Assembly: GCA_905236245.1 (NCBI GenBank)
Contig: CAJOPC010000034.1
Coordinates: forward strand, 1-43,118
Direction of reading: 5' to 3'
From: an uncultured Alphaproteobacteria bacterium
GTDB taxonomy: Bacteria > Pseudomonadota > Alphaproteobacteria > CAAHEQ01 > UBA3637
DNA: 43,118 nucleotides
Shown here: positions 7,594-28,659 of the stretch, one piece after another
Position numbering within the stretch: position 1 is the stretch's first letter
How the letters are laid out: the number at the start of each line of letters is the position of its first letter
Notes under the pieces: model-generated
What the model saw: the letters and a program-made list of their open reading frames with translations, nothing else
The model's database searches: none
What the model was told of the DNA's origin: nothing
Translations under genes and position numbers: made by a program

Positions 7594-9507
<1,914 letters not shown>

Positions 9508-9521
<14 letters not shown>

Positions 9522-9831
9522 TAAATACATTCAAGAACAAACTAATTTATTAATAAAAAAGGCCAACAATCTGGAAAAGCGTGAACAACGGGTCTTTGTT
9601 TATAATGTGACTATCTTAACCATTTACGGTTTTCAAGTTGCTGTTCCCGTTATTATTTCGATTTTTTTGGGAACTTTTTTGGATCGCATCTGGGACATTC
9701 CCCATCTTTCATGGACTTTGAATTGTATTTTAATTGGTTTTATCCTCGGATTTTATAATGCGAACCGTTGGTTTTATAATGCTATTGAATTACAAAAACA
9801 TAAAAAACACATAAGGAAACAAAAGAAATAA
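9508..9831 (+). CDS. atpQ: N-type ATPase accessory membrane protein AtpQ (AtpI / gene 1 family)
   Basis: A 107-residue protein with two predicted membrane helices (VTILTIYGFQVAVPVIISIFL, then a LSWTLNCILIGFILGFY segment) and basic termini. This is the pattern of the ATPase gene-1/AtpI family, called AtpQ in N-ATPase operons. A Shine-Dalgarno AAAGGAGG precedes ATG 9508 inside the end of atpC. Family members have been proposed to act in assembly or in divalent-ion transport; the exact role is unsettled. The assignment rests on topology, size and position between atpC and atpR. Confidence 0.82.
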
Positions 9832-10124
9832 TGTTAGAATTAACTATATGGCAGATCATAATTTGTATAACCTTTGGCGCAATCTTAGCCAGTGTTTATT
9901 TATGCTTATTATGGCAAACAATCCGCCTGCTCCCTCGCGTCAAAAAAAAGGGATTATTCCTATTGATTTCCGCAATATTTAGGCTGGCACTTTTGATTGT
10001 CTTAGCTGTGTTTGCTAGTCAAAATAATGTGGGGAAGTTTTTATGTATTATTGTGGGATTTATTATCACTCGCCTCATTTTGGTTGGCAAATTTAAGGAA
10101 CATATAAAGGAACGGCTGAAATGA
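9831..10124 (+). CDS. atpR: N-type ATPase membrane protein AtpR
   Basis: A 97-residue, three-helix membrane protein with two Args flanking hydrophobic helices (SAIFRLALLIVLAVFA; IITRLILV). AtpR occurs in N-ATPase operons between atpQ and atpB and has been proposed to interact with the conserved carboxylate of the c subunit. The start overlaps the atpQ stop (TAATG), and its own stop overlaps the atpB start (ATGA). The identification is by position, size and topology more than by strong sequence recall. Confidence 0.82.
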   Translation: MLELTIWQIIICITFGAILASVYLCLLWQTIRLLPRVKKKGLFLLISAIFRLALLIVLAVFASQNNVGKFLCIIVGFIITRLILVGKFKEHIKERLK

Positions 10125-10816
10125 TTGAAAGTTTGGATTATCAGATTATATTTACCATTTTTGGGGTTCCTATTAACGCAACCTTGTTTTACACATGGCT
10201 TTTAATGGCGGTTTTAATTTTGGGATCATGGTTAGCAACCCATCATTTAAGCACAGGACCACATATAGGTCGTACACAAGCAGTTTTGGAAATCTTAGTT
10301 GGCAGTTTTAAGCAACAAATCAAGGATGTTGCAAATGATAATCCATTGAAATATTTATCGTTTATCAGCACACTATTCGTCTTTATTGCTTTTTCAAACT
10401 TATTGTCGATCATCCCTTGGTTTCAACAGCCTACTGCCAGCTTGTCCACCACATCTGCATTTGCATTTTGTGTCTTCATTGCTATTCCCTATTATGGCAT
10501 TGTCAATGCAGGCGTTCGCGGTTACTTTAAAAAATTTGTTTCACCGACACCAATTTTATTACCGTTAAATATATTATCTGATTTTTCCTCTACTTTTGCC
10601 TTGGCGTTTCGCCTTTATGGAAACATGCTGAGCGGCGGAGTCATCGTGTCTGTCGTTATGATGCTTGTTCCCTTTTTCGTGCCATTACCGGTGCAGTTGT
10701 TAGGTTTACTAACCGGAATGATTCAGGCATATATTTTTGCGCTTTTGGCTATCGTATATGTATCGGCGGTAGCCCCTGTGGAAGGTTTTGAACTCGATAC
10801 AAAGAAAGGAGAATAA
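10121..10816 (+). CDS. atpB: N-type ATPase Fo subunit a
   Basis: The stator membrane subunit that forms the ion half-channels against the c ring. The 231-residue protein has about five to six hydrophobic helices and the essential Arg at position 164 in LAFRLYGNMLSGG, followed by the conserved QAYIFALLAIVYVSAA-like helix. It overlaps atpR by 4 bp and is followed one base later by atpE, preceded by its own AAGGAG. Confidence 0.95.
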   Translation: MIESLDYQIIFTIFGVPINATLFYTWLLMAVLILGSWLATHHLSTGPHIGRTQAVLEILVGSFKQQIKDVANDNPLKYLSFISTLFVFIAFSNLLSIIPWFQQPTASLSTTSAFAFCVFIAIPYYGIVNAGVRGYFKKFVSPTPILLPLNILSDFSSTFALAFRLYGNMLSGGVIVSVVMMLVPFFVPLPVQLLGLLTGMIQAYIFALLAIVYVSAVAPVEGFELDTKKGE

Positions 10817-10817
10817 A

Positions 10818-11090
10818 ATGGATGCAGTTAGTTTAATTGGATCAATCTCTGTGTTGGCTGCTGGATTATGCGTTGCTATTGGTGGTATTGCTCCAGCAAT
10901 CGGAGAAGCCAACGTTGCGGCAAACGCTTTACGTGCCATGGCCCAACAACCGGATGAATCCTCAAATATCACACGAACATTGTTTGTTGCAATGGCGATG
11001 ATTGAATCAACGGCAATTTATGCTTTCGTGATTACCGTCCTAATCTTATACTTCAATCCGTTCTGGCGATATATAGCTGGCACACCATAA
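10818..11090 (+). CDS. atpE: N-type ATPase Fo subunit c with Na+-type ligand set and second carboxylate
   Basis: A 90-residue, two-helix rotor subunit. The second helix has MIESTAIYAF: Glu63, Ser64, Thr65 and Tyr68 align with Glu65, Ser66, Thr67 and Tyr70 of the Ilyobacter tartaricus Na+ site. At the position of Ilyobacter Gln32 there is Glu30 (spacing to the second glutamate is 33 residues in both), so the ring would have two carboxylates per subunit. This fits N-ATPases. Whether the ion is Na+ or H+ cannot be read with certainty, since ion preference within this subfamily has been debated. ATG 10818 is chosen for its upstream AAGGAG; the frame extends upstream into atpB. Confidence 0.95.
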   Translation: MDAVSLIGSISVLAAGLCVAIGGIAPAIGEANVAANALRAMAQQPDESSNITRTLFVAMAMIESTAIYAFVITVLILYFNPFWRYIAGTP

Positions 11091-11102
11091 TGAGGCATAT
11101 CC

Positions 11103-11879
11103 ATGGGTTTTGATGCTGTAACTTTTTTAGCACAAATTGTTAATCTACTCGTTTTGATTTGGCTGTTGAAACGTTTCTTGTATCGTCCTGTTTTGCAAAT
11201 TATTGAAAAACGGCAACAGGAAGTTTCATCAGCTATCAAATCAGCAGATGAAAAATTGTCAAATGCGGCCGCTTTAGAATCTGAATTACTTCAAAAGCAA
11301 CTCGATTTTGATGCCGCCAAACAAAAACGACTGGATGCCCTAGACAAAGAAATAGCCCAGTTGGAAAAAGAAAAACTGGCAGAGCTAAATTCAGAAATCA
11401 AATTTAAACAGCAAAGGCTCCAAAGTGAATTGGAAAATAATTGGGCAAAAGTTGATGGAACAATCCGTCAATTTTTGGCACAACAATTTCTGTTATTATC
11501 ACATAAAGTTTTAACGGAATGGTCCAATGAAACACCTATGGATATGGCTATTAAGCTATTCCAAAAACGTGTTTTGAGCATGTCCAAAATCCAAAAAAAT
11601 AAGATTGCAAATTTAATTAAAAATCAAAAAGTTATAGATGTTAATTCTTCTACAAAATTAACTAAAAAACAACAAGAATTAATTATCCAAATTTTAAAAC
11701 AATCTTGGACAATTTATCCAAAGACAAAAATTAATTTTCATATCTCATCCTCTTTGGTTTTAGGGATTGAGATACGTTTTCAAACAATGAAATTGGAATG
11801 GTCTATACAATCCTATTTGAACGATATAGAACAAAAGTTAGGCCATATGTTAAAAAATTTTACAGGGTCTGAGAAATGA
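11103..11879 (+). CDS. atpF: N-type ATPase subunit b with delta-like C-terminus
   Basis: The peripheral stalk subunit: one N-terminal membrane helix (FLAQIVNLLVLIWLLKRFLYRPV) followed by a long charged coiled coil (about 35-130). At 258 residues it is much longer than a normal b subunit of about 160. The C-terminal part (about 190-255) reads like the end of a delta subunit: LTKKQQELIIQIL, then SSLVLGIEIRFQTMKLEWSI, then a terminal helix, matching the 'dpsLiGGi.i..gd.viDgSi' pattern. No separate delta gene exists in this operon, so this subunit may replace delta. The resemblance is by eye. Confidence 0.92.
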   Translation: MGFDAVTFLAQIVNLLVLIWLLKRFLYRPVLQIIEKRQQEVSSAIKSADEKLSNAAALESELLQKQLDFDAAKQKRLDALDKEIAQLEKEKLAELNSEIKFKQQRLQSELENNWAKVDGTIRQFLAQQFLLLSHKVLTEWSNETPMDMAIKLFQKRVLSMSKIQKNKIANLIKNQKVIDVNSSTKLTKKQQELIIQILKQSWTIYPKTKINFHISSSLVLGIEIRFQTMKLEWSIQSYLNDIEQKLGHMLKNFTGSEK

Positions 11880-11896
11880 AAGGCTGAGAAATGAAA
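11869..11896 (+). repeat. 15-bp tandem duplication at the atpF/atpA junction
   Basis: The 13-mer CTGAGAAATGAAA occurs at 11869-11881 and again at 11884-11896. The first copy contains an ATGA in which the atpF stop (TGA 11877-11879) overlaps an ATG at 11876. The second contains the atpA start at 11891. The first ATG now opens only a three-codon frame (ATG AAA GGC TGA). Confidence 0.75.
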
Positions 11897-13402
11897 AAAG
11901 CAACGGTCAAAACAAAGTCTATTCAAAAAGCTGTTCAAACCACGCCTCCAAAACTTAAACTAAAGGAGATCAGCGAAATTCAATCTATTTCTGCTGGCAC
12001 AGCACTTGTTTCAGGTTTATCCGAAGCTCAAATTAATGAATTATTATCCTTCAAAGACGGCGTAATCGGAATGGTGTATAGTCTCAATGAAGATGGGGCT
12101 GGCGTTGTCTTTTTAAGCAATGCAGACAACTTAAAGGCCGGCGATCAAGCAACAAGAACGGGACGTATTTTAGAGGTCCCAGTAGGTGATGAGTTATTAG
12201 GGCGAGTCATTGATCCGTTGGGAAATCCTTTAGATGAACAAGGTTCTATTTCTTCGAAAAAAACACGACCAATCGAATGTCCTGCCGCCGCCATCATGGA
12301 TCGTGCTCCGGTTGAGACCCCGCTACAAACAGGCATAAAAGCTATCGATTCCTTTACACCTATTGGACGCGGACAGCGCGAACTTATTTTAGGCGATAGA
12401 CAAACAGGAAAAACCGCTATTGCAGTCGATACAATTCTCAACCAAAAAAAGACTGGCGTTATTTGTATTTATTGTGCCATTGGTCAACGTAGCACTGATA
12501 CGGCTAGAGTTATTGAACAACTGAAAAAAGGCAACATGCTTCAACAAAGTGTTGTCGTCGTTGCTAATGGAGAAAACGAAGCTGGCCTTCAATTCATCGC
12601 CCCCTATGCAGCTACATCTATCGGCGAATGGTTTATGTTACAAGGCAAAGATGTTTTGATTATCTATGACGATTTAACCGCTCATGCACGCGCTTATCGG
12701 CAAATGTCCTTGCTTTTAAGAACGCCCCCTGGACGAGAAGCATATCCCGGCGACATCTTCTATATCCACTCTCGTTTATTGGAGCGATCAACGCATTTAA
12801 ATGAAAAGTTGGGTGGAGGATCTTTGACTTCTTTACCGATTGTTGCAACTGAGGCCGGAAATATTTCTGCTTACATTCCAACAAATATTATTTCAATTAC
12901 GGACGGGCAAATCTACTTATCCACGAATCTATTTCAAAAGGGTATCATGCCAGCAATCGACACAGGGCGTTCCGTTTCACGTGTTGGTGGCGAAGCACAA
13001 CTGCCAGCTTACCGTCAATTATTGGGGCCGTTGAAACTGTTCTATTCTCAATTTGAAGAATTAGAATCCTTTTCTAAATTTGGCGTTCAATTGGATGAGG
13101 CAACACAGCAAAAACTAAATCGAGGGTATGCCATCCGTTTTGTTTTGCAACAAATGCAATTTCAAACAATGGATGTAGCCACACAAATTGCTGTATTCTT
13201 GGCGGTCAATAACGGATTATTTGACGGTCTTTCCAATGCTCAAATTGTAAAAGCACAAAATGCCATTGGAAAAATACTTCATCAACGTTTTACTAATATC
13301 GTTAACAAGATCACAATCAAACGAGAAAAGTTAGATGAAAATACGCAAAAAACGCTTTTATCTGCCTTTCGTCAAGCCATTCAAAGCAAAGAGATGAAAT
13401 GA
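11891..13402 (+). CDS. atpA: N-type ATPase F1 subunit alpha
   Basis: The 503-residue non-catalytic nucleotide-binding subunit of F1. It has the P-loop GDRQTGKT, CIYCAIGQR, the alpha-specific LIIYDDLTAHARAYRQMSLLLRTPPGREAYPGD stretch (abridged: LLLRTPPGREAYPGD) and the GRSVSRVGG Arg finger region. The N-terminus is a basic, Lys/Thr-rich stretch before the usual LKEISEIQSI. It starts in the second copy of a short duplication after atpF, and its stop overlaps the atpG start (ATGA). Confidence 0.96.
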   Translation: MKKATVKTKSIQKAVQTTPPKLKLKEISEIQSISAGTALVSGLSEAQINELLSFKDGVIGMVYSLNEDGAGVVFLSNADNLKAGDQATRTGRILEVPVGDELLGRVIDPLGNPLDEQGSISSKKTRPIECPAAAIMDRAPVETPLQTGIKAIDSFTPIGRGQRELILGDRQTGKTAIAVDTILNQKKTGVICIYCAIGQRSTDTARVIEQLKKGNMLQQSVVVVANGENEAGLQFIAPYAATSIGEWFMLQGKDVLIIYDDLTAHARAYRQMSLLLRTPPGREAYPGDIFYIHSRLLERSTHLNEKLGGGSLTSLPIVATEAGNISAYIPTNIISITDGQIYLSTNLFQKGIMPAIDTGRSVSRVGGEAQLPAYRQLLGPLKLFYSQFEELESFSKFGVQLDEATQQKLNRGYAIRFVLQQMQFQTMDVATQIAVFLAVNNGLFDGLSNAQIVKAQNAIGKILHQRFTNIVNKITIKREKLDENTQKTLLSAFRQAIQSKEMK

Positions 13403-14325
13403 CATTAGAACAATTAAATAGACGCATTAAAACAACATCTGACTTGGGGGAAATCGTCAATACGATGAAAATGCTCTCCTCTGTTTCTGTTGGGCAATAC
13501 GAAAAAGCACTTGCCTCTTTAACTCAATACGCGCATACTGTTCAAGATGCTTTCCACGGGCTTTTTACACAAGATTTTTTTAAATACGAACCACCGAAAG
13601 TGCCTGCGCAAAATCCAAAAGTTTTATCTATTTTAATTGGAACAGACAATGGTTTGGTGGGAAAGTTCAACAGAACTTTATTCAATTTCTCTCAAGAATA
13701 CCTGCAAGATCTTTCCCCTAAGGGAGAAAAGTACTTTATTACAGTTGGAAAACGCATGGGGGTTTTGGCACAAATTGATCAGCTTCCAATAGAGGCAAGT
13801 TATCCCGGATCAAATTCTGTAAAAGAAATTGCACAAAATGCAACACTCATCCTGACTAAAATCAATGAAGTTGTAACAAAACACAAAGTTGATTTAGTCT
13901 ATTTGTTTAACAACAAAAAAAAGGGGGCAACAGCATTTACCCCTCGTGCCAGACAATTGATTCCTCTTCCTCAAGAGCGTATGTATCAACTTAAAAGGAA
14001 AAAATGGGATGGAAAGACTTTGCCCTATATTAGTGCAGACAAACACGAATTGTTCAGCGCCCTGCTCCATGAATATTTGATTATTACTTTATCACATGAT
14101 TTGACATCCAGTTTAACAAGCGAACATTACACCAGGATGATTCATATGCAAGAGGCCCAAAAAAATATCAATGATTCTTTGGAAAACTTTAATTTGGAAT
14201 ATCAACAGCTGCGCCAAACACAAATTACGGACGAACTTATTGATATAGTTTCCGGCGCAGAAGAGATGAATAAAAAGAAAAATCAATCACCACTTGACTT
14301 TTCTGTAAAAAAAGCTGTAAAATAG
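13399..14325 (+). CDS. atpG: N-type ATPase F1 subunit gamma
   Basis: The central shaft of F1, 308 residues. The N-terminal helix MTLEQLNRRIKTTSDLGEIVNTMKMLS is the conserved gamma start (LK.RI.S...T..IT.AM.MVA), and the C-terminal helix (about 235-290) completes the coiled coil (MIHMQEAQKNINDSLENFNLEYQQLRQTQITDELIDIVSGAE, abridged: QTQITDELIDIVSGAE). It is the last gene of the atpDCQRBEFAG set. ihfB follows after 34 bp with its own Shine-Dalgarno. Confidence 0.94.
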   Translation: MTLEQLNRRIKTTSDLGEIVNTMKMLSSVSVGQYEKALASLTQYAHTVQDAFHGLFTQDFFKYEPPKVPAQNPKVLSILIGTDNGLVGKFNRTLFNFSQEYLQDLSPKGEKYFITVGKRMGVLAQIDQLPIEASYPGSNSVKEIAQNATLILTKINEVVTKHKVDLVYLFNNKKKGATAFTPRARQLIPLPQERMYQLKRKKWDGKTLPYISADKHELFSALLHEYLIITLSHDLTSSLTSEHYTRMIHMQEAQKNINDSLENFNLEYQQLRQTQITDELIDIVSGAEEMNKKKNQSPLDFSVKKAVK

Positions 14326-21208: not shown

Positions 21209-21931
21209 ATGAAAATCTCTTTAAATGAGGCCATAAATTTAGAAAAGAAAATTCAATTGGACACTATTCCCGAATTAGATGCCCAACAGATGGCTTTACT
21301 TAACAAGCTACACCTATTTGCTATACATCAAACCTCATATAATGAGGAAGCTAAGCGAATCCCTGTTAAAATGAGCTACAAAGTCAATGATGAATTGAAA
21401 TTGGCTATCATTGCTATCTTAACAACCTGTTCCCTATTGGACATTAAACGCTCTGGCAGAGAAAATCGAAAATTTTTTGAAGATCAAATCAAAATTATAC
21501 AAAAAGATAATACAGCAAAGACAATCGATTTTGGCAAGATTCGTCCAGGCTTACTGCAAGAATTTTTGGTGCCGGAAATTGTTGAAGATTGGATTTTATA
21601 TAGAGATGTCAACGGCGACGGAATTTACGCTCTTATGGATTCAAAAACCTATTTGCAAGGGTTAAAAGACTATGCAAAAGGCGGAGAGCCGGTCTATGAG
21701 TTCGCCCGTTTTTATCGCACATATATGCGGGATAGATTATTCCAACAAACAGAACAAAAAAAGCGTGTTCAAGACATCGCTGTTAGATCTTTAATAGATC
21801 AAGTTATCCAACAACGGCTTGCCGATGGGTGTTCCCCTCAAACTCTGTTGGAAAATGCCTTAGGAGGCAATTACGACAATTTACTTTCAAACGAAAAAGC
21901 GCCTTCAATCAAAGCGCTCCCAAAGAAATAA
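21209..21931 (+). CDS. Unknown protein between clpX and lon
   Basis: A 240-residue, mostly helical soluble protein with no signal peptide or long hydrophobic segment. I do not recognise it. One feature stands out: DVNGDG at residues 133-138, which has the spacing of an EF-hand calcium loop (D-x-N-x-D-G), but a single loop without visible flanking helices is weak evidence. It follows clpX by 15 bp with a modest AAGGA Shine-Dalgarno, so it is probably cotranscribed with clpX. Its 3' end carries, on the opposite strand, the terminator of the small gene at 21932-22006. Confidence 0.7.
   Translation: MKISLNEAINLEKKIQLDTIPELDAQQMALLNKLHLFAIHQTSYNEEAKRIPVKMSYKVNDELKLAIIAILTTCSLLDIKRSGRENRKFFEDQIKIIQKDNTAKTIDFGKIRPGLLQEFLVPEIVEDWILYRDVNGDGIYALMDSKTYLQGLKDYAKGGEPVYEFARFYRTYMRDRLFQQTEQKKRVQDIAVRSLIDQVIQQRLADGCSPQTLLENALGGNYDNLLSNEKAPSIKALPKK
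21894..21918 (-). terminator. Terminator of the 24-codon gene
   Basis: On the minus strand AGCGCTTT pairs with AAGGCGCT (one T-G wobble, 5-base loop) and is followed by TTTTTCG. It lies 13 bp after the small gene's stop, inside the 3' end of the convergent gene. Confidence 0.7.
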
Positions 21932-22006
21932 TTATTTTCCGCTGTTAAGAAAGCCCGAAAAGGCTAATACCATAAAAAGAGAAACTAAAATATCATTTAA
22001 TTCCAT
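21932..22006 (-). CDS. 24-residue hydrophobic small protein
   Basis: The frame ATG 22006 to TAA 21932 encodes 24 residues. The N-terminus is MELNDILVSLF, then MVLAFSGFL, then NSGK: a short acidic start, one hydrophobic helix of about 15 residues and a polar end. It looks like a single-span membrane peptide. Its control signals are much stronger than chance would give: a perfect promoter (22034-22062), AGAGGAG 7 bases before the ATG, and a terminator 13 bp after the stop, predicting a transcript of about 130 nt. The stop abuts the stop of the convergent 240-residue gene. I know of no homologue. The RNA could instead be, or also be, a regulatory RNA. Confidence 0.65.
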   Translation of the reverse strand: MELNDILVSLFMVLAFSGFLNSGK

Positions 22007-22033
22007 AGTCAATCTCCTCTGAAGAATATATGT

Positions 22034-22062
22034 ATTATACTCCACACTAATAAAATTGTCAA
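22034..22062 (-). promoter_or_regulatory. Perfect-consensus sigma-70 promoter of the 24-codon gene
   Basis: TTGACA (22057-22062), exactly 17 bp, TATAAT (22034-22039) on the minus strand. The predicted start is near 22027. It is divergent from the lon promoter. Confidence 0.85.
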
Positions 22063-22075
22063 GAAGTTATTGACT

Positions 22076-22104
22076 TTTTCATTTTTTGCATACATATTTA
22101 TAAT
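22076..22104 (+). promoter_or_regulatory. Likely lon promoter
   Basis: TATAAT (22099-22104) has TTTTCA (22076-22081) 17 bp upstream. A better -35 box, TTGACT at 22070, would need a poorer -10 (CATATT). No sigma-32-type CCCCAT box is seen. Confidence 0.5.
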
Positions 22105-22123: not shown

Positions 22124-24445
22124 ATGACAGAAAAAGCAACAGATGGTATTTACCCCGTATTGGCCCTTCGTGATATTGTTATTTTCCCTAATGTTGTCGT
22201 CCCATTGTTTGTTGGACGAGACAAGTCGATTGCTGCATTAGAAAGCGCAATGGCGGAAAAAAAGCCAATCCTTTTGATTGCTCAAACGGATGCCCAAATG
22301 GATACGCCTCACACTGGGGATCTATATCGCGTCGGCACATTGGCAAATATTCTGCAATTACTAAGATTGCCGGATGGCACTATAAAGATTTTGGTGGACG
22401 GAACAACACGTGCTCGCGTTATGGATTGGACACAAAGTGAACCTTTCTTTGAAGCTCATGCGGCCTCTGTGCCGATGAAGGAAGAAGATCAGGATAAAAT
22501 CGATACTCTTGTTCGCTCCGTCATGGAACAATTTCAAACATATGTCCAATTATCTGGCACTATTTCCCCAGATATTTTAACCGCGGTTTCACAAATCAAA
22601 GATCCTGTAAAATTTGCAGATATCATCGCAACACATTTATCCATAAAAATTGAAGAAAAACAAAAGCTGTTAGAAATCGCATCTTTAGATGATCAGCTTT
22701 CGGCTTTGTTTGCCGCTATGGAAAAAGAAATTGAAGTTTTGAACATGGAGCGAAATATTCGCAAACGTGTTAAAAAACAAATGGAAAAATCCCAACGTGA
22801 ATACTATTTAAATGAACAAATCAAAGCTATTCAAAAAGAATTAGGTGATTCTGCGGAAGACGCAAGTGAATTGGGCGAATTAGAAAAGAAAATTAATGCA
22901 GCCCATATGTCAAAGGAAGCCACCGAAAAAGCTTTGACAGAGCTTAAACGTCTCAAAATCATGGGTAATATGTCTGCAGAAGCCGGCGTTATTCGAAACT
23001 ATATTGAATGGTTAATTGCCCTACCCTGGACTGCTCAAAAGAAATTACAATTGGACTTAAAAAAAGCTGAGCAAATTTTAGATGAAGATCATTATGGATT
23101 AAAGAAAGTAAAAGAACGTATTTTGGAATTTTTAGCCGTTCAAAAACGTGTGGGACATGTCAAAGGATCTATTTTGTGTTTGATTGGTCCGCCTGGGGTT
23201 GGCAAAACAAGTCTTGGTCAATCTATCGCTCGGGCGACCGGACGCACCTTTGTTCGTGCCAGTTTAGGTGGCATGCATGATGAAGCAGAAATTCGCGGAC
23301 ATAGACGCACCTACATTGGATCGATGCCCGGAAAAATTATTCAAAGCATGAAAAAGGCCGGCAACTTAAATCCTCTCTTTTTATTGGATGAAATTGATAA
23401 AGTTGGAAATGATTATCGCGGCGATCCCGCCTCCGCTTTATTGGAAGTTTTAGATCCGGAACAAAATAAAACATTCTCAGACCATTATTTGGATGTAGAT
23501 TATGATTTGTCCAATGTAATGTTTATTTGCACGGCAAACGATACTTCCTCTATGCCCTCTCCTCTTTTGGACAGAATGGAAATTATTCGTTTATCCGGCT
23601 ATACAGAAGATGAAAAATTGGAAATTGCTAAACGCCATTTGGTTCCACGCCAATTGGATTTAACGGGGCTTAAAAAAGATGAATTAACCTTTGATGATGC
23701 GGCTTTGTTAGAATTAATCCGCTCTTATACAATGGAAGCCGGCGTCCGTCAATTGGAACGTGAAATCGCAAAAATTGCACGCAAAGTTGTCAAAGAATTA
23801 CAAACAAAATCCATTCAACAAATTGTTATTACCCCTAAAAATGTGAAAAAATATGCTGGTGTTCCGCGCCACTTCTTCGGTATTGCAGATAAGGAAGATC
23901 AAATTGGCGTTTCCAATGGGCTTTATTACAGCGAAGTCGGTGGCGGAATTATGCCTCATGAAGTGCTAACCATGTCTGGAACGGGCAAATTAACATTTAC
24001 CGGGAAATTAGGCGATGTTTTCAAAGAAACTGTGGAAGTAGCAAGATCTTATGTTCGTGCCCATGCCAAAGATTTTGGCATTGATGAAAAGAAATTGAGC
24101 AAACAAGACATCCACCTTCATGTGCCGGAAGGAGCGCAACCAAAAGAAGGGCCTTCCAGCGGTGTTGCTATTGTGACCGCTCTTGTATCTGCTTTAACCG
24201 GAGCCCCAGTAAAAAAACAAATTGCCATGACAGGAGAAATAACTTTACGGGGACGCATTCTGGCTATCGGCGGATTAAAGGAAAAATTGTTGGGCGCCTT
24301 ACGTGCAGGCATCAAAACGGTCTTTATTCCTACTGAAAACAAGAACGACTTAGAAGATCTTCCGGATAATGTTAAAGATAATTTGGAAATCATTCTTGTT
24401 TCTCGCATTGAAGAAGTTCTCCAACATGCTCTAAAAAAAGCATAG
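22124..24445 (+). CDS. lon: ATP-dependent Lon protease
   Basis: The 773-residue LonA protease degrades misfolded and regulatory proteins in the cytoplasm. It has the N-terminal substrate domain (YPVLALRDIVIFPNVVVPL), a coiled coil (about 200-265), an AAA+ domain with Walker A GPPGVGKT (355-362) and Walker B LFLLDEIDK, and a C-terminal protease domain with Ser679 in EGPSSG and Lys721 in GGLKEKLLGA, which is the Ser-Lys dyad. All key residues are present. The Shine-Dalgarno is AAAGG. clpX lies upstream with one gene between. No hupB follows, unlike in many alphaproteobacteria. Confidence 0.97.
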   Translation: MTEKATDGIYPVLALRDIVIFPNVVVPLFVGRDKSIAALESAMAEKKPILLIAQTDAQMDTPHTGDLYRVGTLANILQLLRLPDGTIKILVDGTTRARVMDWTQSEPFFEAHAASVPMKEEDQDKIDTLVRSVMEQFQTYVQLSGTISPDILTAVSQIKDPVKFADIIATHLSIKIEEKQKLLEIASLDDQLSALFAAMEKEIEVLNMERNIRKRVKKQMEKSQREYYLNEQIKAIQKELGDSAEDASELGELEKKINAAHMSKEATEKALTELKRLKIMGNMSAEAGVIRNYIEWLIALPWTAQKKLQLDLKKAEQILDEDHYGLKKVKERILEFLAVQKRVGHVKGSILCLIGPPGVGKTSLGQSIARATGRTFVRASLGGMHDEAEIRGHRRTYIGSMPGKIIQSMKKAGNLNPLFLLDEIDKVGNDYRGDPASALLEVLDPEQNKTFSDHYLDVDYDLSNVMFICTANDTSSMPSPLLDRMEIIRLSGYTEDEKLEIAKRHLVPRQLDLTGLKKDELTFDDAALLELIRSYTMEAGVRQLEREIAKIARKVVKELQTKSIQQIVITPKNVKKYAGVPRHFFGIADKEDQIGVSNGLYYSEVGGGIMPHEVLTMSGTGKLTFTGKLGDVFKETVEVARSYVRAHAKDFGIDEKKLSKQDIHLHVPEGAQPKEGPSSGVAIVTALVSALTGAPVKKQIAMTGEITLRGRILAIGGLKEKLLGALRAGIKTVFIPTENKNDLEDLPDNVKDNLEIILVSRIEEVLQHALKKA

Positions 24446-24471: not shown

Positions 24472-27400
24472 TTAGTACTTATACGACAAACCGAGCAACG
24501 CTCTGTAATCTGGCTGAGCTCCGGCCATATGATCTGGGTGCAAACGCATCATCAACTCACTGCGCCAATCATAAGTATCGGTTTCAACCATATAATATAA
24601 CCCAAGATCATACTCCCGCGAATTGGGCTTTAAAGAAACCTTTTGCTCATCAAAATAAACTCTATCGACATACATATCTCGTGCAACTGGCAAGTTAAAG
24701 GTCGCATGCCCTTCACGAATTCTAAGTGGTGAAGAAAATTGCAATCCAATTGTTTTTTCATCATCTGCTTGATAACGTGCATCAAAGGCGAAACTATCAC
24801 TGATCACATCTTTAATTTTCACAAGGCTCCTCGTTTGAGGAATTGAACTACGTCCATAATAATATGCCGCAGACAAAGTCACAGATTCTAAAGGTTTATA
24901 TTCAACACTGGCACCTGTAAAATACGTCTTGCCGTCATCTGTTGCAAAAGCTCCGCTTCCGTTCATACCTAGCAATGCATCTTTTTCTTTCATCATACCG
25001 CCAACAGCTTTGAAGGTCAAAGACCTATGTGGACGATAAGACACCTCAGAATTCAACACATGAACAGAGTGCTTAAACTCTTCATCTTTTGATGAATCCG
25101 TTTCATAGAAAGCATTTTTACCTGTGGTCACACCCATTAAAAATTTCAACTTCTCACTTCCCCATTGTTGAGCCAAAGAATAGCTGTCCTTCATATTTAT
25201 AAATGGATTTGCCAATACTTTATCAATATGTAATTTTTCATTAATGGTATCCGAACGATATGAGAACTTTAATTGAGATGACTCGTTAAAACGATAATTC
25301 ACATCTAAAATACCCAAACCGAGCAAGTTTTTATCTGTTTTGCTGGAAGCAAACGAAAAACTCAACTTGTCTTCAACGCCTGCTTTTTGAACTTTTGTTT
25401 TGGACATAAAGGATCTAAAATCTCGCTTAAAGGAATCTGGATCACGCAATGCGGATTTTACCTTTCCTTCAATAGATACCGCAAAAGGTCGATTATAATC
25501 ATCCAATGCCAAGACTGATTTAGGCGCTTTATTTTCCACCTTTTTATTGATTCCTTTTGGCAAAGCTAACCTTGTATCGGATAATGGTTGTTTACTAGAA
25601 ACCGATTGAGTTGTAGGCGTTTGTAAATCCCCCAATGGTTCCGTGGCCGCTTTTAGATCCACCATACCATGACCGTAAATTTTACTAATTTCATAGGTAT
25701 TGCCAAAACTATCCGTCCAAGTACTCAAAGAATCTGATATAGTTGAATTGAGAGCCCCTCCCCAATTTACCAAGTTTTTATTAGCACTCCGGAATAAAAT
25801 CTCTACAATTTGTTGACTGGTCAAATGCGGATAAGCAGACATCAATAAAGCGACAGAACCAGTTACCACCGGAGTTGCCATAGAGGTTCCCTGTGCATAA
25901 CCATAGGAAACTTTACTTGTTCCTTCAGTTATGTAAGCGTGGGAACTATTATCTTGAACTGTCGAATAAATACCCCACTCACTATGAATTTCGGTAAGAT
26001 AGTCATAATACGCATTCAAATTTCCCGTTGTAGGATTGTCTCGATAAATATCAATTAACTCTTCCAAACGATCATTGTTAACTTCTACGCCTCTGCTGAT
26101 ATCTCCACCAGGAGCGGTTAAACAATATCCTGCCGCCGCACCACAATATTGAGAATAAGACGCAAGCTTATTATCTTTATCCGCAGCGACAACGGTAATA
26201 AATAAATTTGTTTGATCGTATTGACTTCCTGGCAGGAATTCCGTTGACAAAGGAATACCACAATCGATACTGGCTTCGTGATAATTACCATCATTTCCTG
26301 CAGCCTTCACAGATACGATATTATTTTCAGCAGCAATTTGGTACATCCTAATAGCTGAATCAGACTCATGGAGCGTAGCTGATTTACCCACAGCATACGA
26401 TACTTCATCAGTGGAATTTCTAGTAGGAGCACCAAAGCTCATATTAACAACACGAACTCCTTCGTTTTTCAAAGTTTCCATGGTTTCATCGAATCCATAC
26501 CCATGCCATTTACCTCCAACAAAAAAAGCCCCTGGTCGACTGGCAACTACCAGCTCAGCATTGGGGGCAACACCCATCATTCCTAATTCATTTTGAGTCG
26601 CTCCGATGATGCCTGCCACATGCGTTCCATGATCATTTCCGCTCATATTTGAATAACGCTCAACCGAGGTCTCATCAGAAGAAATATCATGAGGTGCAGG
26701 ATCATTTTTCAATGCATCCCAATCGTATGTGGAAGAATACTGCGAAAAGCTGCTAGAAACCGTACTAGCCGTCCACCAACCATCGCTATCATTTCCTGCA
26801 TCAACCACATCAAAATCTGTAGCCCCTGTTTTATAAAAAACAAGATCGCCATACTCCGTGCCATTTTCTGTTTTTCGAGCCTTAAAACCATAACAATGTG
26901 TTGTATCACCGTTTCTACATGGGCCATAATCAAAATTGTATCCATACACTTTATTGTTGTCGCCTTTTACGATATTGCCTTTTAAATCAGGATGATTGAT
27001 GTCAAAACCATTATCCATAATTCCCACTCGAACTTTACTGCCAGTCGAATAATTTCCATCATCACCTATCAACTCACCAGTTTCTGAATTTCTGTTCACA
27101 ACATATCCGTTATATCCTCTGGCATAAGCATATTGCGCATTAATTTGCTCTAAAAAGCGACCCTTTTTAAATTCATTGGTCACATAGTTAGCAGGAGCAC
27201 CATTAGCAGGATGTGCCCCTATGTTTGGAAAATCAACGCTTACACAGGCACCATCTTTGACTGCATAACCAGGTGCACAAATACATGAATCAATGCCTTC
27301 TGATCCCTTGGGAGATGTAGCTCCCGTTGGACAATTGTTACATGTTGTTCCCACTGCGTATTGGTTTGCAGGACATTCAAATATACACTTCTTTTTATCC

Positions 27401-28659
27401 TCACTTATAGTATAAGGATCCTCACAATTCGTTATTTTTAATAAAGTATCTCCAGCAGAATAACAAGGGGCACTACATGTTGCATGCTCTGGGCAACTCG
27501 CTATATTAACATATCCTTCTCCGCAATTAACAGGAGAACAAGTATCTCCTTCATATCCTGACTGACAATCTGAGAACAAATGCGTTTCCGTTCCACCACG
27601 CCAACATGTTTGACAATCTACAGCATGTTCCGGGCAAGTCCCTACAGTGTATCCATTACATTCATTTTCTTCACATTTTACATAAGTATTTCCACCTGCT
27701 TCGCATGTCTCTCCTGGAATAGCGTGATATCCCGTTCCGCAACCAGATACATATCCAGGGCAAACTGCCAATCTACATTCCTTATATAATTCTTGACCAG
27801 ATTGACAAGTATTGCCTGTTTCTTCATAATCTCCTGTACATTCCTTTGTTGTATATGGGCAAACGATAGGGGTACAATTATCTCCTTCATATCCATCCTG
27901 GCATTTCGAGAAAGAATACGTTTCTGTCGTACCACGCCAACATGTTTGACAATTTTGGGCATATTCTGGGCACGAACCTACTTTATACCCGCTACATGCA
28001 TTTTCTTCACATTTTACATAAGTTTTACCATTTGTTTGACATTGATCTCCCGATATTGGATGCCATCCTTGCCCACAGCTCTCGACATAATCTGAACACT
28101 TGTTTCCGCCAGAACTCTTTGAATGGCCACCGCCGCCACCACTTGTGGCCATAGCAACAATACCACCTGCAATAACTGCAGCGCCAACACCAATACCGGT
28201 CCAACCAAGAACACCTATACCTTCACTTGTCTTGGTAATACCAGTATAACTTCCAGCATCTGCCCAAGTCGACGCCATAGCGGGCTGTCTTGCAAACTCA
28301 TTATATCCATTAGCCCACACCGGATAAGAATAATTATTTTGCATTAAAATTTGTCGATAAGCCATGGGAATTTGACGCATACAACTTGCATTAACATTGG
28401 CTCCTGCACGAATTAAAGTTGCGACGCCCACGCGATTTTGACGCCATACTTCCTCACACAAAGCGGTATTACCTTTGCTGTCAGGCAATTCTAATGAATA
28501 ACCTTTTTTTCTGATGTTTAATATGGCTGTTAAATTTCCCGTTTCTGCGTGATAAGCCAATGCGCGACGTGGAGTCACGCGGATCATCTCAGCCTTTGTC
28601 GGGCTACACAAAGCCATAGCAACTAATAAGACAATCCCTTGTTTCAACGCAGATTTCAA
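24472..28659 (-). CDS. Subtilisin-like (S8) autotransporter with ankyrin-like and Cys-rich modules
   Basis: A 1395-residue surface protein. In order: signal peptide (1-23); ankyrin-like repeats (about 41-90, ending AGANVN); a hydrophobic Gly/Ala stretch (about 147-178); a Cys-rich zone (188-472) with a duplicated module and a GCC2/GCC3-like end (CNNCPTGATSPKGSEG); an S8 peptidase domain with Asp549 (GIMDNG), His677 (NDHGTHVAG), oxyanion Asn789 (AAGND) and Ser926 (GTSMATP); a linker; and a C-terminal region of alternating strands (about 1095-1395) ending LGLSYKY, as expected for an outer-membrane barrel. The start is TTG 28659 with GGGAG 6 bases upstream. The catalytic triad is complete. The barrel call rests on strand pattern and the aromatic C-terminus. 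An active surface or secreted protease is likely; the substrate is unknown. Confidence 0.9.
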   Translation of the reverse strand: MKSALKQGIVLLVAMALCSPTKAEMIRVTPRRALAYHAETGNLTAILNIRKKGYSLELPDSKGNTALCEEVWRQNRVGVATLIRAGANVNASCMRQIPMAYRQILMQNNYSYPVWANGYNEFARQPAMASTWADAGSYTGITKTSEGIGVLGWTGIGVGAAVIAGGIVAMATSGGGGGHSKSSGGNKCSDYVESCGQGWHPISGDQCQTNGKTYVKCEENACSGYKVGSCPEYAQNCQTCWRGTTETYSFSKCQDGYEGDNCTPIVCPYTTKECTGDYEETGNTCQSGQELYKECRLAVCPGYVSGCGTGYHAIPGETCEAGGNTYVKCEENECNGYTVGTCPEHAVDCQTCWRGGTETHLFSDCQSGYEGDTCSPVNCGEGYVNIASCPEHATCSAPCYSAGDTLLKITNCEDPYTISEDKKKCIFECPANQYAVGTTCNNCPTGATSPKGSEGIDSCICAPGYAVKDGACVSVDFPNIGAHPANGAPANYVTNEFKKGRFLEQINAQYAYARGYNGYVVNRNSETGELIGDDGNYSTGSKVRVGIMDNGFDINHPDLKGNIVKGDNNKVYGYNFDYGPCRNGDTTHCYGFKARKTENGTEYGDLVFYKTGATDFDVVDAGNDSDGWWTASTVSSSFSQYSSTYDWDALKNDPAPHDISSDETSVERYSNMSGNDHGTHVAGIIGATQNELGMMGVAPNAELVVASRPGAFFVGGKWHGYGFDETMETLKNEGVRVVNMSFGAPTRNSTDEVSYAVGKSATLHESDSAIRMYQIAAENNIVSVKAAGNDGNYHEASIDCGIPLSTEFLPGSQYDQTNLFITVVAADKDNKLASYSQYCGAAAGYCLTAPGGDISRGVEVNNDRLEELIDIYRDNPTTGNLNAYYDYLTEIHSEWGIYSTVQDNSSHAYITEGTSKVSYGYAQGTSMATPVVTGSVALLMSAYPHLTSQQIVEILFRSANKNLVNWGGALNSTISDSLSTWTDSFGNTYEISKIYGHGMVDLKAATEPLGDLQTPTTQSVSSKQPLSDTRLALPKGINKKVENKAPKSVLALDDYNRPFAVSIEGKVKSALRDPDSFKRDFRSFMSKTKVQKAGVEDKLSFSFASSKTDKNLLGLGILDVNYRFNESSQLKFSYRSDTINEKLHIDKVLANPFINMKDSYSLAQQWGSEKLKFLMGVTTGKNAFYETDSSKDEEFKHSVHVLNSEVSYRPHRSLTFKAVGGMMKEKDALLGMNGSGAFATDDGKTYFTGASVEYKPLESVTLSAAYYYGRSSIPQTRSLVKIKDVISDSFAFDARYQADDEKTIGLQFSSPLRIREGHATFNLPVARDMYVDRVYFDEQKVSLKPNSREYDLGLYYMVETDTYDWRSELMMRLHPDHMAGAQPDYRALLGLSYKY
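27538..28098 (-). repeat. Tandem Cys-rich module inside the autotransporter gene
   Basis: Residues 188-262 and 300-374 of the protein are two copies of the same module, a period of 112 residues. In the last 49 residues of each copy 36 are identical, including YVKCEEN, QTCWRG, and GYEGD followed by C. The Cys positions are conserved. Confidence 0.8.

Follow-up and report, generated by a model that had tools for sequence, protein, structure and literature searches.

A 24-codon gene lies beside lon, on the opposite strand, in the 43,118-nucleotide stretch of DNA analysed here (the window), and that it is real, rather than a chance reading frame, is close to certain. Comparison with related genomes indicates that its product is a member of a new small family of peptides, restricted to one subclade of one genus. 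The comparative support, which comprises frame, near-consensus promoters, position, and tandem copies, is unusually clean for a gene of 24 codons; genes this short are generally missed by automatic annotation. The family, predicted to consist of small membrane peptides, is well defined and open to experiment. The features of the region are as follows.

21209 to 21931, plus strand: orf240, the convergent neighbour, 240 codons, genus-restricted and of no known family.
21893 to 21918, minus strand: hairpin of 8 bp (including one G-U) with a short T-run, a possible intrinsic terminator that the terminator scan did not call.
21932 to 22006, minus strand: peptide ORF, 24 codons plus TAA, MELNDILVSLFMVLAFSGFLNSGK, supported by homologues and purifying selection.
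22014 to 22020, minus strand: Shine-Dalgarno site AGAGGAG, ending 7 bases before the ATG at 22006.
22034 to 22062, minus strand: sigma70 consensus promoter TTGACA-N17-TATAAT (12 of 12 matches), supported by its sequence, by shuffles, and by comparable promoters at seven of eight homologous copies.
22070 to 22104, plus strand: likely lon promoter region, with TTGACT at 22070-22075 and CATACATATTTATAAT from 22089.
22124 to 24445, plus strand: lon, the divergent neighbour.

The gene order is clpX, orf240, the peptide gene (opposite strand), and lon. An earlier note on this DNA had placed the peptide gene between clpX and lon; lon does adjoin it, but clpX is set apart by the 240-codon gene. The perfect promoter described in that note is borne out on the minus strand, with the −35 hexamer at 22062-22057, a 17-nucleotide spacer, and the −10 hexamer at 22039-22034, and transcription is predicted to start at about 22027. 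The Shine-Dalgarno site and the 24-codon frame were likewise found as described. The coding part runs from 22006 to 21935, and the TAA stop (21934-21932) abuts the TAA of orf240, as had been claimed, so that the hexamer TAATTA spans 21929-21934.

Dinucleotide shuffles of the stretch upstream of the ORF yielded a 12-of-12 site in at most 0.05% of cases. The 1.12-Mb assembly contains 21 perfect promoters of the TTGACA-N17-TATAAT form, and 91 sites with at most one mismatch compared with 15 for a reversed control. Four relatives each carry 22-35 perfect sites (control, 0-1). The perfect sites tested lie mostly ahead of short or highly-expressed-looking genes, including ribosomal-protein-like ORFs. 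Because the genome counts far exceed the controls, and given the types of gene downstream, a perfect site can be taken, in this group, as a meaningful indication that a gene is strongly expressed, and the promoter at 22062-22034 would mark the peptide gene as such. The earlier remark that few promoters in the window come so near to consensus needs one qualification, namely a second perfect site at 7626-7598 on the minus strand.

Searched for directly, the peptide turned up in two further species of the genus, at 68% and 55% identity. For the wider homologue hunt, the DNA upstream of lon was read in 30 relatives, followed by profile searches that covered 43 genomes of the order. Together these gave eight homologous copies, distributed over five species of the genus. 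Two species carry a single copy of 24 residues (G000 and G010), while the remaining three of the five carry two copies each: 34 and 24 residues in G002, 24 and 33 in G004, and 30 and 31 in G007. All eight copies lie at the clpX-orf240-lon junction, between orf240 and lon and on the strand opposite to both, and no convincing copy away from this junction was found in the 43 genomes. The next profile match (E = 0.002), within a 602-codon frame of G010, looks like a generic hydrophobic stretch and was rejected as a homologue. The two peptide units of G007 are 71% identical over 96 bp spanning promoter and start, which, at the level of sequence comparison, shows that the pair arose by tandem duplication. 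In the orf240-lon interval, the 24-residue copy and the 33/34-residue copy stand in one order in G002 and in the reverse order in G004.

No match to the peptide was found in Pfam, NCBIfam, or PHROG, and no relative in the PDB; comparison of all eight peptides with Pfam and NCBIfam up to E = 10 likewise gave no convincing match, the best Pfam E-value being 0.046. In the literature searched, no paper dealt with a small peptide encoded upstream of lon. A mobile or phage origin was rejected, as searches of viral contigs, phages, and plasmids gave zero matches. On a midpoint-rooted ClpX tree, the five peptide-bearing species form one supported side, and in this subclade orf240 lies between clpX and lon. 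In the other sampled members of the genus in which both genes were found, orf240 and lon are apart and the peptide is absent; among other genera, many members have clpX-like sequence reaching directly up to lon. A role for the peptide as companion of orf240, as opposed to the lon junction, was rejected because G001, G005, G006, and G009 have an orf240 homologue elsewhere without the peptide. The orf240 product itself carries a strongly conserved, EF-hand-loop-like WILYRDVNGDGI segment, and an AlphaFold2 model built from three sequences was of low confidence, with a mean pLDDT of 41.6.

A sigma70-type promoter of its own, matching the consensus at 10-12 of 12 positions, precedes each of seven of the eight copies, and the leaders of these promoter-bearing copies are about 16-20 nt long with a clear Shine-Dalgarno site. 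The second G004 copy is without its own promoter and probably shares the mRNA of the first. Frameshifts and stops were looked for in close relatives, as the earlier note had proposed; the frames are open, an outcome that favours a gene. The length change between copies amounts to one whole codon (SGK/GK). Differences at codon positions 1, 2, and 3 number 6/2/12 between G000 and G004, 8/3/13 between G004 and G010, and 7/3/16 for the 33/34-residue pair, and are thus concentrated at third positions. In pairwise NG86 comparisons, dN is below dS wherever dS is estimable, with synonymous sites near saturation. In a further coding test, the same substitutions were re-placed at random, which introduced a stop into 15-63% of simulated sequences, and amino-acid identity was compared with that of the remainder. 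For G000/G004 and for the 33/34-residue pair, the observed identity lay far above the simulated values, and none of about 11,000 simulations for each reached it; P was 0.004-0.03 in three further pairs, and two were not significant, all from the small number of five species and eight copies. The original description of a compact, strongly promoted gene for a single-span hydrophobic peptide is thus upheld by the homologues in five species, their intact frames, the third-position bias, and the conservation of the promoters.

All eight peptides are 24-34 residues long and have one hydrophobic segment, the best 17-residue stretch averaging 1.64-2.51 on the Kyte-Doolittle scale. The N-terminal half is net negative in every peptide, and the C-terminal half carries a charge of +1 or +2 in seven peptides and no net charge in the eighth; the 24-residue peptide of the source genome has a lysine at its C-terminus. 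With this make-up, the peptide would be expected to span the inner membrane once. The positive-inside rule relates charge to the orientation of a membrane span and, given the acidic N-terminal half and the mostly positive C-terminal half, most likely places the C-terminus in the cytoplasm. With fewer than 50 codons, conservation between species, coding selection, and a predicted transmembrane segment, the family is predicted to belong to the single-span small membrane proteins.

As to function, the explanation judged best, with an even chance of being right, is that of a membrane microprotein with a single span, produced constitutively, which binds a larger membrane protein and tunes it. Transcribed from a constitutive sigma70 promoter that matches the consensus in full, the mRNA would have a leader of about 16-20 nt and a good Shine-Dalgarno site; the 24-residue product would be translated, enter the inner membrane as a single span, and pack by its helix against a larger membrane protein, tuning or stabilising it. 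CydX, AcrZ, KdpF, and MgtR bind in this way, within the membrane, to larger membrane proteins that they tune or stabilise. Like these and YohP, the peptide falls in the range of 24-37 residues and has one hydrophobic helix with little sequence constraint inside it. For example, CydX tolerates large substitutions and is only loosely constrained inside its helix (PMC6005532), and YohP has 27 residues (PMC7549839). Unlike CydX, KdpF, AcrZ, and MgtR, the peptide matches no family model and is not linked to genes of known membrane complexes. Most subunits of universal complexes are not confined, as this family is, to a single subclade of a genus, which speaks against a microprotein of this kind.

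The main rival, possible though rather unlikely, is a type-I-toxin-like peptide whose free translation would depolarise the membrane and which would otherwise be held down by RNA or slow translation. The ldr, ibs, and zor genes of E. coli encode type I toxins amplified in tandem. Like LdrA-D, IbsA-E, and ZorO/ZorP, the peptides are tiny, hydrophobic, arranged in tandem, served by strong promoters of their own, and mostly basic in the C-terminal half; with 24-34 residues and hydropathies of 1.64-2.51, for which membrane insertion is predicted, they are small hydrophobic peptides of the kind that defines this class. The family is also patchy and fast-evolving, and tandem copies occur in three of five species. 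This role ranks as the main rival because earlier screens found such toxins through tandemly duplicated small hydrophobic proteins, the search criterion that yielded ZorO (PMC8309996). The Shine-Dalgarno site lies within predicted pairing in G000, G004, and G010 (mean unpaired probability 0.11-0.20), which favours this rival, but its pairing partners vary between species. An antisense RNA was rejected for want of a candidate: no opposing promoter is conserved across the copies, and no long complementarity to the leader exists within 1 kb on either side, the best being 13 bp with 4 G-C, inside the convergent coding gene. In these respects, and in their leaders of just 16-20 nt, the peptide genes differ from ldr, ibs, and zor. 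The PXXXGC motif of Fst/Ldr is missing from all eight peptides, and plasmid or phage copies were not found. The arrangement also recalls TimP/TimR and TisB/IstR-1, in which a small hydrophobic protein gene has a divergent transcription unit directly upstream; the divergent unit is an RNA in those systems, whereas here it is the lon mRNA, in which no complementarity to the peptide leader was found such as has been reported for TimR.

The peptide and lon promoters stand in a conserved, tight back-to-back pair. In the source genome, the −35 box of the peptide promoter is 7 bp from the −35-like box of lon, and in all five species 4-8 bp separate the −35 box of the copy nearest lon from the TTGAC(A/T) box that probably belongs to the lon promoter. 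At this spacing, RNA polymerase bound to one promoter would be expected to impede binding to the other. In related, though not identical, geometry, polymerase binding to symmetric bidirectional promoters in one direction prevents binding in the other (PMC12825309). A role purely in cis would exploit this: the strong divergent promoter, with a short throw-away ORF, would restrain or supercoil the lon promoter, or insulate lon from clpX-orf240 read-through, and no clear plus-strand terminator was found between orf240 and lon. Such a role is improbable and, by itself, inadequate because it leaves the amino-acid conservation unexplained; a throw-away ORF needs none. Second copies are moreover far from lon, and the five bidirectional promoters tested in the cited study had basal transcription too low for competition (PMC12825309). 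Peptide and lon output may nonetheless be coupled through promoter competition, and the consequence of the conserved pair for protease supply is directly testable.

A fuller version of this coupling, in which peptide and lon form one module and Lon sets the peptide level, either with the peptide as substrate or via promoter competition, to give a switch in protein quality control at the membrane, is quite improbable. Under it, a stress shift of polymerase to the lon promoter would lower the peptide, and vice versa. The link to the AAA+ proteases raised in the earlier note has gained from the association with lon in five species and is still positional only. In most members of the bacterial family, the TTGAC(A/T) box is followed by a CATACATATATAT-like element, which may serve as the core of the lon promoter or as a regulator site. 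In the window it occupies 22089-22104; upstream of lon in L004-L033, across most genera of that family, it stands 35-77 nt ahead of the lon coding match, and 128-137 nt ahead of it in two. In the source genome, the strict CATACATATATAT pattern with upstream TTGAC occurs only in the lon intergenic region, once per strand, and the idea that the element is common to other genes was rejected.

Finally, a small regulatory RNA with a fortuitous ORF, acting in trans or antisense to the 3' end of orf240, as the earlier note had proposed for the convergent gene, would account for the strong promoter and for a hairpin able to terminate the transcript after about 135 nt, about 38 nt of which would overlap orf240, but the codon-like substitutions, the lack of a conserved fold, terminator, or overlap, and the absence of an Rfam match for the peptide-gene region make it highly improbable. 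The hairpin reported in that note exists, within the 3' end of orf240, with a stem at 21918-21898; the 8 bp claimed require a G-U pair and are then followed by four Ts, whereas five Ts leave 7 bp. A conserved terminator was rejected: the terminator scan called none at this hairpin, and four relatives have nothing comparable downstream of the peptide gene, the hairpin being present in the source genome only. The single-sequence fold of the peptide gene is unremarkable (z = −1.2). The covarying stems that would have marked an RNA did not emerge from RNAalifold, which across the copies gave only −3.3 kcal/mol, with three of 15 pairs changed on both sides, and a structured RNA was rejected. Because neither RNA structure nor terminator is conserved, the selected product is, as judged from these comparisons, the peptide and not the RNA.

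Three further observations concern the surroundings. In G001, a genome of the same genus that is 97% complete, ClpX is present and no match was found to the N-terminal 307 residues of Lon. A large cysteine-rich ORF at 24472-28659 (minus strand) has a subtilisin-like domain (GHGTHVAG); its C-terminal part looks like an autotransporter barrel. At 7681-14325 (plus strand), ATP synthase genes are arranged as beta, epsilon, small membrane proteins, a, c, b-like, alpha, and gamma-like, an order that we take to depart from the one usual for F-ATPase and to resemble that of the N-ATPase (Na+-translocating) operon.
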